A stretch of 48,836 bases of DNA, from positions 1 to 48,836 of the IMG/VR virus record IMGVR_UViG_3300002144_000224. One strand, written 5' to 3'. The notes below the pieces were generated by a model. The model had not been told where the DNA came from and ran no database searches. It saw only the letters and a list, made by a program, of their open reading frames with translations. The position numbers were made by a program, and so were the translations under genes. Of the stretch, positions 2,988 through 18,287 are shown piece by piece. The stretch's first letter is position 1. Each line of letters begins with the position of its first letter. Source of the stretch: a virus.

Positions 2988-3200
2988 TTATTCTTTATGC
3001 CCCGAAAGTTTTGCTAGATCAATTTCTAGTTTACCAATACGCTTATGGAGTATATCCCTGGTAGTCTTCAATGACTCAATCCTGTCTTGAGCATCTTCAT
3101 ATCTAAACAATAGTCCTCCAGAATACTCATCAAATCCATAGATCATATGCCATAGTTCATTATAGGAGTGTTTCATCCTACGTTTAAAGTATTTAATCAT
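2988..3200 (-). CDS. Small coiled-coil protein, 70 aa
   Basis: A basic N-terminus (MIKYFKRRMKHSYNE) is followed by a C-terminal heptad-like helix (residues about 35-65, with EDAQDRIESLKTTRDILHKR). The start overlaps the end of the endonuclease VII-like gene by 8 nt. A short GGGGC/GCCCC hairpin straddles its stop codon and may help termination toward the convergent micropeptide gene. No family recognised. Confidence 0.65.
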   Translation of the reverse strand: MIKYFKRRMKHSYNELWHMIYGFDEYSGGLLFRYEDAQDRIESLKTTRDILHKRIGKLEIDLAKLSGHKE

Positions 3201-3570
3201 TACCCCACGACTTTCCAGAATTACTACCAGTTCTCATTAAATAGTTGGCAGCCTTCTTTAGCATATTAACATCATCATTAAAACGACCCAAAGCAGTATT
3301 ACATCCAGTGCATAGCCAACCCCTAAACTCATCTGTCTTCCAGTCATGATCCAAATGATATGTATCATAACTCATTTCACAAATATTACAGACATGATCA
3401 GCACTAGGCTTGGGAGTTATCTTCCTCAAATATGTAGTAGTCTTGGTCAAATGAGCATCACAAATCTTACACACATTCTTATACCAAATCTTTCCAGTAT
3501 TACGACCAACATTACTAATTCCCATATCACCCAATGGTTTTGTCTTATCACACAGTTTACAGGTTTTCAT
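3193..3570 (-). CDS. Endonuclease VII-like Holliday-junction nuclease, 125 aa
   Basis: The C-terminal half carries the recombination endonuclease VII signature: CNIC, then YHLDHDW as the His-Me finger catalytic core, then FRGWLCTGCN and an LKKAANYL helix. The N-terminus has two further CxxC pairs (CKLCDKT, CKICDAH), so two structural zinc sites are likely. In T4 the relative (gp49) cleaves branched DNA before packaging. The start at 3570 has GGAAG upstream and overlaps the preceding stop (TAATG). Family assignment is firm; the exact substrate is inferred. Confidence 0.85.
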   Translation of the reverse strand: MKTCKLCDKTKPLGDMGISNVGRNTGKIWYKNVCKICDAHLTKTTTYLRKITPKPSADHVCNICEMSYDTYHLDHDWKTDEFRGWLCTGCNTALGRFNDDVNMLKKAANYLMRTGSNSGKSWGND

Positions 3571-4002: not shown

Positions 4003-4533
4003 TCATCTCTTATTCACCGCCGAACTCATATCCGCCGAGCTTTTAAAATCTTTTGCTCCCTTAATAATATTACATAATGCATGAGAAGGTCTAACATTAT
4101 CTAAGCTATCTCTACCACCTCTCGCAATAGCAATAAGATGATCAATGTGTAGACCATTTTCCCAGTTTCCAAAACCAACTCTTCTAGAAGCAAACATGTC
4201 TATTTCAAATCCACAGATATGACATATCGTACCGTATTTTTCAATTACTTCCTGCTCTACATATTTCTCAAAACCATTTTTGGCTATCGTGGCTCGCTTC
4301 CTACGTTTCTTGCTTCTATCTATTTGTCTTCCTTTTTCAGAATTAGAATAAGCCCGTTGAACAGCACGAACAGTCTCTGGGTCATCAGCACGTCTCTTAC
4401 GTTGTTTTCGATTTATCTCATCACAGTGCTTGGAATGTCTTTCTCGTTGCCTTTCGGCATCACAAGGTTTACAGTAAGACTTACTCTTGCTGTTCATTTC
4501 ATTCACTTTGCATCTAATACAAATCTTATTCAT
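4003..4533 (-). CDS. HNH endonuclease with N-terminal zinc finger, 176 aa
   Basis: An N-terminal CIRCKVN...CKPC zinc site (residues 4-23) is followed by a very basic linker and an HNH core near the C-terminus: CHICG, LHIDHLIAIARGG, NVRPSHALCNIIKG. This is the common free-standing phage HNH layout; such enzymes are often homing endonucleases, or act in packaging when next to a terminase, which this one is not. ATG 4533 shares a base with the upstream TGA (TGATG), preferred over GTG 4536. Homing activity is inference. Confidence 0.85.
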   Translation of the reverse strand: MNKICIRCKVNEMNSKSKSYCKPCDAERQRERHSKHCDEINRKQRKRRADDPETVRAVQRAYSNSEKGRQIDRSKKRRKRATIAKNGFEKYVEQEVIEKYGTICHICGFEIDMFASRRVGFGNWENGLHIDHLIAIARGGRDSLDNVRPSHALCNIIKGAKDFKSSADMSSAVNKR

Positions 4534-5027
4534 CACTTAACTTTAATCTTTCGAGCTTTAGCAATCACATCATCCAAAGCAATTGGCGTATAGTTTATTT
4601 GTTCTACACTCACATTAATGTACCAATTATCTTTAATTAGTTTATCATGTAGGTGACCGTGAACATTAGCTTTGTACCTACTAGACTGTTGCTTGTTCAC
4701 TGGTATGTGTGTGAGTAGCATTTCAGCAATACTGTGGCTGCCCCGAATATCTTTAAAGTGAGGGAGGTATTCCTTGATGGGGAAGATATCGTGATTGCCT
4801 TTAATTAAAATCTTTGTACCATTAAGATGATCCATTATCCACAAGTGTTTAGGGTTCATGGTTAGATCCCCAAGGTGGTACACCTTATCATTAGGTCCGA
4901 CAACACTATTCCAATTCTTAATCAAAGCGCTGTCCATTTCATCCACATTTTCATAAGGTCTATTGCAATATTTAATAATATTATTATGACCAAAGTGTGT
5001 GTCACTAATAAGAAATACTTCTGCCAT
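4533..5027 (-). CDS. Calcineurin-like metallophosphoesterase, 164 aa
   Basis: All metal motifs of the YfcE/MPP family are in order: DTHFGH (D9, H11), GDL (D54), GNHD (N78, H79), THIP (H107) and HGHLH (H124, H126). Length is normal for a small phosphodiesterase. Members hydrolyse cyclic nucleotides, phosphodiesters or nucleotide second messengers; substrate cannot be told from sequence. In a phage it could degrade a defence signal or help recycle nucleotides (inference). The start is set at ATG 5027; an in-frame ATG 15 nt upstream has a poorer ribosome binding site. Confidence 0.88.
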   Translation of the reverse strand: MAEVFLISDTHFGHNNIIKYCNRPYENVDEMDSALIKNWNSVVGPNDKVYHLGDLTMNPKHLWIMDHLNGTKILIKGNHDIFPIKEYLPHFKDIRGSHSIAEMLLTHIPVNKQQSSRYKANVHGHLHDKLIKDNWYINVSVEQINYTPIALDDVIAKARKIKVK

Positions 5028-11023: not shown

Positions 11024-12060
11024 GACTAGGAATCATTGCAAGATCAGATAAGACTGGGCTGGGGAATCAAACCTATGAGCTTACAAAAATGCTTAATCCA
11101 GACAAGGTGCTACTAATTAATTCTTTTTATTTTAATAAGAATGAACAGTTTCCAAAACTTTATAAGGGATATAATGTTACAGAAAGCTCACGTGGATTTA
11201 TAACAGATGAAGAGGCTAGGAATTTTCTAGAGGGTCTTGATGCAGTATTAAGTTGCGAGACATTCTATAATAGAAACTTTATTAATATTGCTAAAAAAAT
11301 GGGCGTAAAGACATTATTACAGTATAACTTTGAGTTTTTAGATAATCTAAGAGATCCAAACCTTCCTGTACCAGATGTGTTTATTGCTCCTAGCATGTGG
11401 AACTTTGATGTAGTACTTAATAGTTTTGGCAAGAAAGCAAAGGTAGTCCATCTCCCACCACCAACATCTTTAGAAAAGTTTTCTTCTGCTAGGAAGTCAA
11501 ACATAACAGACAAGCCACACAATAAGATTCTTCATATTGCTGGCAAAATAGCTGATGCTGACCGCAATGGTACTAACACAGTTATGGAGATGCTTAAACA
11601 CTCTACCGCAGACTATGAGCTTGTGATCAAGGTACAGAACCCACAGAAGCTAGAGAGACCTCCAGCAGACTCTAGGTTACGCATAGACAGTAGTAACCCA
11701 GATAACAGTGCAGATCTTTACGTGGGTTTTGATGCAATGGTTTTGCCAAGAAGATATGCTGGGTTATGCCTGCCAATGAATGAAGCATTGTTGAGTGGCC
11801 TACCAGTCTTTATGACTAACATTTCCCCAAATAGTTTTGTGCTGCCAAAAGAATGGCTGGTAGAGTCTAAGCAGATTGACAAAATAAAAACAAGAACAGT
11901 CTTACCAGTCTATGCAGCAGACCCAATTGCTCTAGCCGCTATGGTTGATAACTTTGTTTCTAACCAGAATAGAGAAAACCAAAGAGCTTTTGATCTTGGC
12001 AAAGAGTTGTTCTCTCCAGAGTCATTAAAAGAAAAGTATATTAGTCTTATTAGTCAGTAG
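11020..12060 (+). CDS. GT4-type glycosyltransferase, 346 aa
   Basis: I start at ATG 11020 (MRLGIIARSDKTGLGNQTYE), overlapping the previous TGA as ATGA, not at the upstream in-frame ATG 11002. The N-terminus has the typical GLGNQT loop; the C-terminal domain shows KILHIAGKIADADRNGT, then DLYVGFDAMVLPRRYAGLCLPMNEALLSGLPVF, matching the E-x7-E-like donor site of GT4 enzymes. Cytoplasmic. The terminator at 12071-12100 follows. Confidence 0.87.
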   Translation: MRLGIIARSDKTGLGNQTYELTKMLNPDKVLLINSFYFNKNEQFPKLYKGYNVTESSRGFITDEEARNFLEGLDAVLSCETFYNRNFINIAKKMGVKTLLQYNFEFLDNLRDPNLPVPDVFIAPSMWNFDVVLNSFGKKAKVVHLPPPTSLEKFSSARKSNITDKPHNKILHIAGKIADADRNGTNTVMEMLKHSTADYELVIKVQNPQKLERPPADSRLRIDSSNPDNSADLYVGFDAMVLPRRYAGLCLPMNEALLSGLPVFMTNISPNSFVLPKEWLVESKQIDKIKTRTVLPVYAADPIALAAMVDNFVSNQNRENQRAFDLGKELFSPESLKEKYISLISQ

Positions 12061-12100: not shown

Positions 12101-12152
12101 AAAGCTCTCTAAGAGGCTCTCAGGGTCTTACCCTTGTATGGCAAAAGGAAAT

Positions 12153-12233
12153 GTCCCGTACAAGGAAATTCAGGCACGAAGGCCCGATCTAATAAATGGG
12201 TAACTAAACCATCACTAAGGTCCTGTACGGGAC
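12153..12233 (-). ncRNA. Candidate structured small RNA, about 81 nt plus U-rich tail
   Basis: On the - strand, GTCCCGTACAGGA at the 5' end (12233 down to 12221) pairs with TCC-T-TGTACGGGAC at the 3' end (12166-12153): 13 base pairs with one bulged U. Between them a CGGGC/GCCTG hairpin with a CUUCGU loop and an ATGG/CCAT hairpin can form, giving a three-way-junction shape. The extended -10 promoter at 12240-12248 predicts a start at 12233, the first base of the stem. ATTTCCTTTT follows the 3' arm and would make it its own terminator. No known RNA family recognised. Confidence 0.6.
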
Positions 12234-12239
12234 AGTTTA

Positions 12240-12248
12240 ATTATACCA
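12240..12248 (-). promoter_or_regulatory. Extended -10 promoter of the small RNA
   Basis: TGGTATAAT on the - strand (TATAAT at 12240-12245, TGG at 12246-12248) is a perfect extended -10. No good -35 exists; the terminator hairpin lies where it would be. Six nt downstream is the G at 12233 that opens the RNA's closing stem. Confidence 0.6.
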
Positions 12249-12254
12249 CGATAG

Positions 12255-12292
12255 CAAATAGAAAACCCCAGGCTGCCGTGGCGAACCTGGGG
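12255..12292 (-). terminator. Rho-independent terminator of the long - strand unit
   Basis: On the - strand CCCCAGG (12292-12286), a 13-nt loop and CCTGGGG (12272-12266) are followed by TTTTCTATTTG. This is a classical intrinsic terminator, 18 nt after the stop of the last - strand gene (12310), and ends transcription of the block that begins beyond 48.8 kb. Confidence 0.85.
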
Positions 12293-12309: not shown

Positions 12310-12447
12310 CTACTTCTTGAACCAATCGGTTGTAGAAATACCAATTAAGTATTTTGCTCCAACAGTAATTCCAAAGATGGAACCAACAACTACAGCAGCT
12401 GACAAACTAATTGCAGCTGCCCATTCAAACACTAACCATGGACTCAT
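12310..12447 (-). CDS. Small single-pass membrane protein, 45 aa
   Basis: ATG 12447 follows CAAGGAGAGAAA, a strong ribosome binding site. The product begins MSPWLVFEWAAAISLSAAVV, has one long transmembrane segment (about residues 5-32) and a polar aromatic tail ending DWFKK. It is the last gene of the long - strand unit. Size and position would suit an accessory lysis or membrane-modifying peptide, but function is unknown. Confidence 0.7.
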   Translation of the reverse strand: MSPWLVFEWAAAISLSAAVVVGSIFGITVGAKYLIGISTTDWFKK

Positions 12448-12511
12448 TTTCTCTCCTTGTTTTTTGGTCTTCATTTTTCAAAGACAATTCTAGTATACAC
12501 CATTTCCCCAA

Positions 12512-17705: not shown

Positions 17706-17719
17706 TGTTACCCTTTCCG

Positions 17720-17793
17720 TACCCTCTGTGGGACTTGAACCCACGACTACCGAATTATGAGTTCGGGGCTCTAACCAGCTGAGCTAAGAGGGC
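17720..17793 (-). tRNA. tRNA with CAU anticodon (Met, or Ile2)
   Basis: A full cloverleaf: acceptor GCCCTCT/AGAGGGT, D-arm GCTCAGCTGGTTAGAGC, anticodon stem CCGAA/TTCGG with loop CTCATAA, and T-loop TTCAAGT. A CAU anticodon is elongator Met or, if modified, Ile2. CCA is not encoded. Its 3' end is 14 nt from the thyX start. Confidence 0.9.
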
Positions 17794-17807
17794 ATATTAA
17801 GTTATAG

Positions 17808-17885
17808 TCCCACGTCGAAGAATCGAACTTCGCTAGCCAATCGGCATCGGATTTACAGTCCAATTTCTGTCCCAGCAGCCATGGG
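17808..17885 (-). tRNA. tRNA-Tyr (GUA)
   Basis: Anticodon stem TTGGA/TCCGA with loop CTGTAAA gives GUA. The variable arm GCC-GATT-GGC makes it class II, as expected for Tyr. T-arm CGAAG/CTTCG. The acceptor has one mismatch (G:A at pair 7) and a G:U, and the D-arm is short, so it looks a little degenerate. CCA not encoded. Confidence 0.82.
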
Positions 17886-17902
17886 TTATATTAAGTTATT
17901 CG

Positions 17903-17976
17903 AGCCTTCTATCGGATTCGAACCGATGACCTACGCATTACAAGTGCGTTGCTCTGGCCAACTGAGCTAAGAAGGC
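17903..17976 (-). tRNA. tRNA-Thr (UGU)
   Basis: Perfect acceptor GCCTTCT/AGAAGGC, anticodon stem ACGCA/TGCGT with loop CTTGTAA (UGU), and T-arm ATCGG/CCGAT. CCA is not encoded. First tRNA after the cluster promoter at 17991-18019. Confidence 0.93.
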
Positions 17977-17990
17977 AATGCTATGTTAGA

Positions 17991-18019
17991 AGTATACCCC
18001 TTAAGATTATCTATGTCAA
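17991..18019 (-). promoter_or_regulatory. Promoter of the Thr-Tyr-Met tRNA group
   Basis: On the - strand TTGACA (18014-18019), 17-nt spacer and TATACT (17991-17996). The start would fall near 17984, just before tRNA-Thr. Near-consensus. Confidence 0.82.
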
Positions 18020-18069
18020 ATCTGATGCCGTACTAAGACATTTGTATTTGTTTGTGTACGACTACATTG

Positions 18070-18142
18070 CGACCCTGACCAGACTTGAACTGGCGACTTC
18101 CTCCGTGACAGGGAGGCACTCTAACCACTGAGCTACAGGGCC
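18070..18142 (-). tRNA. tRNA-Asp (GUC)
   Basis: Acceptor GGCCCTG/CAGGGTC (one G:U), anticodon stem CCTCC/GGAGG with loop CTGTCAC (GUC), T-arm GCCAG/CTGGT, discriminator G as expected for Asp. Separated from tRNA-Gly by one base. CCA not encoded. Confidence 0.93.
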
Positions 18143-18143
18143 G

Positions 18144-18214
18144 AGCAAATAGCAGGAATCGAACCAGCATCGTAACCTTGGCAAGGTTAAGTTTTACCAC
18201 TAAACTATATTTGC
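18144..18214 (-). tRNA. tRNA-Gly (GCC)
   Basis: Acceptor GCAAATA/TATTTGC, anticodon stem TAACC/GGTTA with loop TTGCCAA (GCC), T-arm TGCTGGTTCGATTCC. The unusual AT-rich acceptor sets it apart from host-like tRNA-Gly. One base from each neighbour; CCA not encoded. Confidence 0.9.
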
Positions 18215-18215
18215 G

Positions 18216-18287
18216 CTGGGATGGCAAGATTCGAACTTGCAACCTCGAAATTAACAGTTTCTTGCGCTACCATTGCGCCACATCCCA
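18216..18287 (-). tRNA. tRNA-Asn (GUU)
   Basis: Acceptor TGGGATG/CATCCCA, anticodon loop CTGTTAA (GUU) on a stem with four good pairs, T-arm with GTTCGAATC, discriminator G as usual for Asn. First of the closely packed Asn-Gly-Asp trio. Confidence 0.9.

Follow-up and report, generated by a model that had tools for sequence, protein, structure and literature searches.

What occupies the gap of about 250 bp that separates two convergent genes in the virus record IMGVR_UViG_3300002144_000224? This record is a single virus contig of 48,836 bases, which was analyzed over its entire length (hereafter, the window). The gap is flanked by a glycosyltransferase gene of the + strand, ending at position 12060, and by an ORF of 54 aa on the − strand (12310–12474), for which a protein search found no relatives. 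The large terminase of the record shows 52–54% identity to Streptomyces phages, several of which are classed within the Stanwilliamsviridae. The contig also encodes WhiB, ThyX, ribonucleotide reductase, a holin, an M23-type endolysin, glycosyltransferases and six tRNAs (the ThyX and ribonucleotide reductase labels were assigned from the sequence). Since WhiB is encoded, the virus is a phage of an actinobacterium, and both whiB and a glycosyltransferase gene are also present in phages isolated on freshwater Nanopelagicales (PMC10202952). The tRNA genes, located at 17719–18287 and identified with ARAGORN, are those for Met, Tyr, Thr, Asp, Gly and Asn (five of the six were also matched by Rfam), while two ORFs (3193–3570 and 4003–4536) have, judging by the appearance of their sequences (Cys/His motifs), the look of HNH-type endonucleases.

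The features recognized within the gap are collected in Table 1. The − strand between 12233 and 12153 reads GUCCCGUACAGGACCUUAGUGAUGGUUUAGUUACCCAUUUAUUAGAUCGGGCCUUCGUGCCUGAAUUUCCUUGUACGGGAC. Folding of 12233–12140 gave −33.7 kcal/mol, compared with −19.6 ± 3.1 kcal/mol for shuffled sequences (z −4.55; 0 of 200 shuffles), and showed a closing stem (P1) with two hairpins; for 12236–12149, over which the covariance model described below scored 77.1 bits, z was −6.0. In P1, GUCCCGUACAGG(A) pairs with (U)CC-U-UGUACGGGAC, whose last base is C12153. The P2 arm is the exception, as the sequence of this record folded alone gives another pairing than the family consensus. On the promoter side, the predicted start, G12233, lies 7 nt past the last base of TATAAT and is itself the first base of the closing-stem arm. 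An ordinary sigma-70 scan did not list the promoter at 12240–12248, and no clear −35 element was seen. A −10 box that agrees with TATAAT in at least five of six positions is found at a similar distance in 79 of 79 family members, compared with 10% of control windows. Downstream of P1 the tail contains a mean of 5.3 T in 10 positions across the family, and the criteria for an intrinsic terminator (a GC-rich hairpin with a short loop and a strong U tract) are not met, because P1 closes about 57 nt.

Table 1. Features of the small RNA locus of IMGVR_UViG_3300002144_000224 (positions within the window).
Feature	Positions	Strand	Basis or remark
Terminator-like hairpin CCCCAGG...CCTGGGG, then TTTTC	12261–12292	−	Read directly, hairpin at 12292–12266; ends the upstream − strand operon
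Extended −10 promoter TGGTATAAT	12248–12240	−	Read directly; predicted +1 = 12233
Putative small RNA, 81 nt plus tail, three-way junction	12153–12233	−	Fold z, homologs, covariance model
P1 5' arm GUCCCGUACAGGA, closing stem	12221–12233	−	Family alignment
ACCUUAG(U)GA, J1/2 and start of P2, U12214 bulged	12212–12221	−	Complement of 23S rRNA U1923–U1931
P2 hairpin GAUGG ... CCCAU, displays the invariant loop	12195–12213	−	Consensus fold
Invariant loop UAGUUAC	12200–12206	−	Complement of 23S rRNA G1910–A1916 (helix 69); identical in 79/79
P3 hairpin UCGGGC-CUUCGU-GCCUGA	12170–12187	−	Fold; hairpin kept across members
P1 3' arm UCCUUGUACGGGAC, U12163 bulged	12153–12166	−	Family alignment
T-rich tail AUUUCCUUUU after P1, possible terminator	12143–12152	−	Sequence

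Most of the preliminary description of this locus thus held: (i) an extended −10 element at 12240–12248 with a start at 12233, (ii) a bulged closing stem reaching from 12233 to 12153 and followed by a tail, (iii) two internal hairpins forming a three-way junction, and (iv) a position in a convergent gap right after a terminator. Its claim that the RNA terminates itself has only the weak support of the tail composition.

Relatives were gathered as 80 phage loci retrieved with ThyX, a protein encoded 5 kb away. Searches of these loci with the gap of about 250 bp (blastn) revealed the RNA in a dozen of them, mostly elsewhere in their genomes, and since homologs exist in other phages, a chance origin of the structure is excluded. 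A scan of viral contigs with the core pattern TTAG(N)GATGGWTTAGTTACC recovered at least 120 contigs, and the same pattern gave a single match in 84,980 bacterial and archaeal genomes, located in Tenacibaculum, which has neither stem nor promoter and was dismissed as chance. A covariance model built from 30 sequences had matches in 19 of the 82 sources that make up the ThyX set (this record included), in 40 of 78 loci fetched by WhiB, i.e. blind to the RNA, and in 18 of the 19 loci whose core is a variant. In the WhiB-fetched loci the RNA invariably lies on the whiB strand. A single copy per genome was found in 23 of 30 records, and weak second matches in whole records mark the same place on the opposite strand. 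The RNA is absent from several relatives of 95–112 kb and is therefore accessory. No RNA match was obtained by blastn against cultured phages, nor when the covariance model was run on five related cultured phages (four of Streptomyces, one of Rhodococcus), and a 15-mer scan with the record's own 5' arm returned chance matches only. The RNA recurs in well over 100 uncultured phage contigs, and many freshwater phages of actinobacteria carry it.

The alignment of the 30 sequences supports P1 strongly, with 98.8% of its cells paired (91.2% in shuffles), a value falling to 29–62% when the partner is slid by 1–3 columns, and with compensatory changes on both sides in 10 of the 11 pairs. Among the non-Watson-Crick pairs of P1 in 79 members, scored symmetrically, 89 were G-U and 15 A-C; hence the − strand transcript is the strand that folds. 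P3 is retained as a hairpin of at least 4 bp in 69 of 77 members, with 39 different 5' arms; its support rests on this count, since the P3 columns of the alignment and of the model were offset by one and are disregarded. Another alignment, contaminated by matches to the opposite strand, was left aside. P2 is nearly invariant, so that its covariation support is weak and it rests on the fold instead. Of the possible reading frames, none stays open in more than 23 of the 79 members. Rfam 15 at gathering scores reported just five tRNAs in the record and nothing at the RNA, and searches of loci L024, L091 and L075 down to E 5 likewise gave no match there; the families unmatched at the RNA include 6S, pRNA, hammerhead, GOLLD and tmRNA. 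The locus has what is expected of an independent small RNA gene, namely a promoter of its own whose spacing from a conserved structure specific to one strand hardly varies. We consider it almost certain that this is a stand-alone phage small RNA gene representing a new family, its transcription and termination being inferred.

The remaining claims of the preliminary description can be judged on this basis. A discrete phage small RNA is supported by the fold, the covariation between the arms (which had been named as a check) and the lack of the coding constraint that had been offered as the alternative, with no transcript shown; the absence of a known family was confirmed. No support was found for the suggestion of an RNA polymerase decoy. 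As to the suggested regulator, the conserved unpaired letters point to pairing with 23S rRNA helices 69–71, which had not been considered.

Gene neighbours of the RNA vary among the phages (names were given by sequence likeness, without profile searches). An Hsp20-like gene is most often located upstream, with PstS-like, Dps-like or other genes elsewhere; downstream there is an HNH-like protein, a gene beginning MPYHVGEKGS, a methyltransferase-like gene or a convergent sulfotransferase-like gene. Three side observations concern these neighbours: the Hsp20-like gene ends PEEKKPKTIKIK directly upstream of the RNA (L141, L098 and some 80 other loci surveyed), a small gene starting MPYHVGEKGSYGCSGYPVV or similar adjoins the RNA downstream in L086, L149, L032, L080 and L054, and the Hsp20-, PstS- and Dps-like genes are of stress and nutrient types known from cyanophages.

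The next gene is convergent in this record and in 7 relatives, and co-directional in most relatives. A second −10 box is located within 40 nt downstream of the RNA in 67 of 79 members (extended examples are L052 4687–4720 and L098 5999–6030). The ATG is often just a few bases away from it, and the following gene thus seems to be transcribed from a start of its own. Given the convergent genes and the second −10 box, the RNA is not a leader of anything, and the criterion for a cis-regulatory leader or riboswitch (a 5' UTR of a co-directional gene sharing its promoter) is not met. As the ATG often follows the second predicted start by a few bases, many genes of these phages look leaderless, an inference made from sequence alone.

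What might such an RNA pair with? Its most conserved letters lie outside the stems: the P2 loop never changes among the 79 members and is preceded by CUU[A/G]G(N)GA. In E. coli 23S rRNA, which reads G1910-UAACUA-UAACGG-UCCUAAGG-UAGCGA, the loop complements 1910–1916 and the upstream block complements about 1923–1931, with their order kept and their spacing nearly equal; the overall complementary stretch belongs to helices 69–71 (E. coli nt 1910–1931). For the RNA of this record, a duplex of up to about 20 pairs over this stretch was read by eye, interrupted by a single mismatch and by a bulge in each strand, and GUU (12209–12207) could add pairs to A1918–C1920. With longer junction strands (UCGCUC, UUGCUAACC, UCGCUUACC, CGUUAUC) the pairing extended to about 1936.

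The complementarity was compared across 917 windows of rRNA, the tmRNA region, RNase P RNA, SRP RNA and tRNAs. For distinct cores, the helix 69–71 window ranked first by mean duplex energy (−23.1; best unrelated window −18.6) and also by the worst-pairing member (−20.1 vs −13.9). It was the single best window for 23 of the 35 distinct cores and not for the other 12. None of 80 shuffled rRNAs matched the family score. Within 4.6 kb of rRNA there is one instance of the two-block pattern GUAACUA-N3..8-UCCUAAG, and 7.55 Mb of control DNA yielded one as well (a count leaving out the RNA gene itself and the loci fetched with core patterns). The 27-nt rRNA site does not differ among E. coli, Segatella, Fischerella and Mycoplasmopsis; the 23S rRNA of the real host was not part of this comparison.

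The variable junction segments pair with the adjacent rRNA stretch better than shuffles do (0 of 500), and this expectation, stated before new sequences were read, held in the new set (0 of 300). That set consisted of 23 flanks, of which L335 and L336 look like chance matches and some others were already known. In the ranking of rRNA windows the segments reached only the 46th place of 1475 and the 75th of 1106. The test is confounded in one subfamily, where the segments also pair within the RNA as an AAGG-CCUU hairpin. Such an extra hairpin, CAAGG...CCUU, was observed between P1 and the core in L221, L270, L273, L341, L354 and their relatives; it would hide part of the rRNA-complementary strand and might conceivably gate the pairing.

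A referee may object that these tests lean on a shared core. The core is indeed common to all members by descent and served as the search pattern for about half of them, so the family tests are not independent. Taken singly, L221 and L270 (each 0 of 400 shuffles) and L149 (1 of 400) stand out, and several others (class 2 and L062 among them) do not differ significantly from shuffled cores. The RNA of this record gave 8 of 400 by alignment score and 42 of 150 by energy. Counting all identities between the core and the rRNA complement gave no significant result on its own (14 vs 13.5). Two further candidates were dropped: a same-sense likeness of the record's 3' arm to 23S rRNA (GAAUUUCCUUGU), which most relatives do not have, and a mini-ORF (AUG-GAU-UAG) over the core, the frame of which is not kept in relatives. 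Weighing these results, we regard 23S rRNA as a target that could equally well prove right or wrong; there are no transcript or binding data, and any consequence is inferred.

If 23S rRNA is the target, the following sequence of events can be proposed. The main sigma factor of the host would transcribe the RNA from the extended −10 promoter, and the transcript would begin at the first base of the GC-rich closing stem, which would protect both ends. P2 would display UAGUUAC, and the junction strand before it (A)CCUUAG(N)GA, the two segments together being antisense to nt 1910–1931 (to about 1936 with a long junction strand). The loop would make the first contact with the loop of helix 69, after which P2 would open and pairing would spread into the 1923–1936 strand. 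Helix 69 (bridge B2a, tRNA contacts) would thereby be masked, so that in infected cells the subunits might fail to join or incomplete 50S particles might be trapped. Transcription, termination, rRNA binding and any effect on the ribosome are all inferred in this scheme. Against it, the 1923–1936 strand is structured in the mature 50S subunit, and the RNA would need large-scale production, since rRNA is very abundant. The benefit to the phage (a smaller pool of active ribosomes, an assembly block or protection from a host nuclease) cannot be distinguished from the sequence. The bolder reading, that widespread viral RNAs bind helix 69–71 of host 23S rRNA to switch off, trap or retune ribosomes, is one that we regard as slightly less likely than not.

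Among the rival explanations, the one that survives best is a trans-acting small RNA in which UAGUUAC seeds pairing with host or phage mRNAs and the 23S match is coincidental. It remains a possibility: all evidence for an independent RNA gene fits it, known phage small RNAs such as PreS act in this way (PMC12197685), and chance alone gives a lone 7-mer a match in rRNA in roughly a quarter of cases. However, the complement of the loop is not enriched at phage gene starts (17, compared with a mean of 21.8 for its permutations), a target identical across very diverse phages and probably hosts would be needed, whereas the rRNA site is universal, and the two-block match and the junction segments are left unexplained. 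A protein-binding decoy, capturing RNA polymerase, a host nuclease or another defence factor through the loop, would suit a stable closed fold with an invariant hairpin loop. This appears improbable, as there is no match to 6S RNA or another Rfam family and the conserved letters outside the loop that track the rRNA complement are not accounted for. A protective role, in which the RNA pairs with helices 69–71 and shields helix 69/70 from a defence nuclease toxin, draws on exactly the same pairing evidence as the rRNA-target explanation. Mycobacterial MazF toxins cut 23S rRNA in helix 70, adjoining the site. We nonetheless judge this role highly improbable, because the bound RNA would also hinder the translation that the phage needs and, to our knowledge, no such toxin is present in the host. 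Finally, the absence of any small RNA, the long inverted repeat in the convergent gap of this record being a two-way terminator, a DNA-level repeat or part of a coding sequence, is virtually ruled out by the −10 box in every member, the excess of G-U over A-C pairs, the invariant loop, the co-directional gene that follows in most relatives and the lack of an open frame.

The reading preferred here remains a small RNA gene with 23S rRNA as its candidate target. Phage small RNAs are known chiefly from a few model phages. What is new is an RNA family that is common in phages of aquatic actinobacteria, most of them uncultured, and that neither Rfam nor the cultured phages searched contain. No phage RNA directed against 23S rRNA was found in the literature searched, which left out most subscription papers and bioRxiv. 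Like PreS of lambda and the RNA of about 100 nt of PhiKZ, it is a short intergenic phage RNA set apart from coding genes (PMC12197685, PMC8545117). PreS, however, is Hfq-dependent and targets dnaN mRNA, whereas the new RNA folds into a closed three-way junction, one loop of which is the complement of an rRNA segment, and it has no Rfam-level relation to any known RNA. With the pRNA of phi29 it shares a three-way junction and a closing stem, but it has neither an Rfam match nor a packaging context, and its carriers are large tailed phages whose large terminase is of the ordinary kind. GOLLD and the cyanophage manA and wcaG RNAs are likewise structured RNAs of aquatic bacteria or phages, and manA RNAs lie near genes such as ibpA, as the new RNA often follows an Hsp20-like gene; GOLLD, in contrast, is giant, manA and wcaG are cis-regulatory leaders, and the new RNA has no Rfam match to any of them. 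The closest parallel for the proposed target is synthetic: a PNA against helix 69 (Kulik 2017, cited in PMC7038079) addresses the same element of 23S rRNA. That molecule is man-made and inhibits the growth of E. coli (PMC7038079), whereas the effect of the natural RNA is inferred. The rRNA target is concretely testable, as a seven-letter loop is set against one rRNA helix. Should it prove true, a virus would act on the ribosome through base pairing with the rRNA core, and the RNA would represent a natural antisense attack on a site already picked by the designers of antibacterial PNAs.
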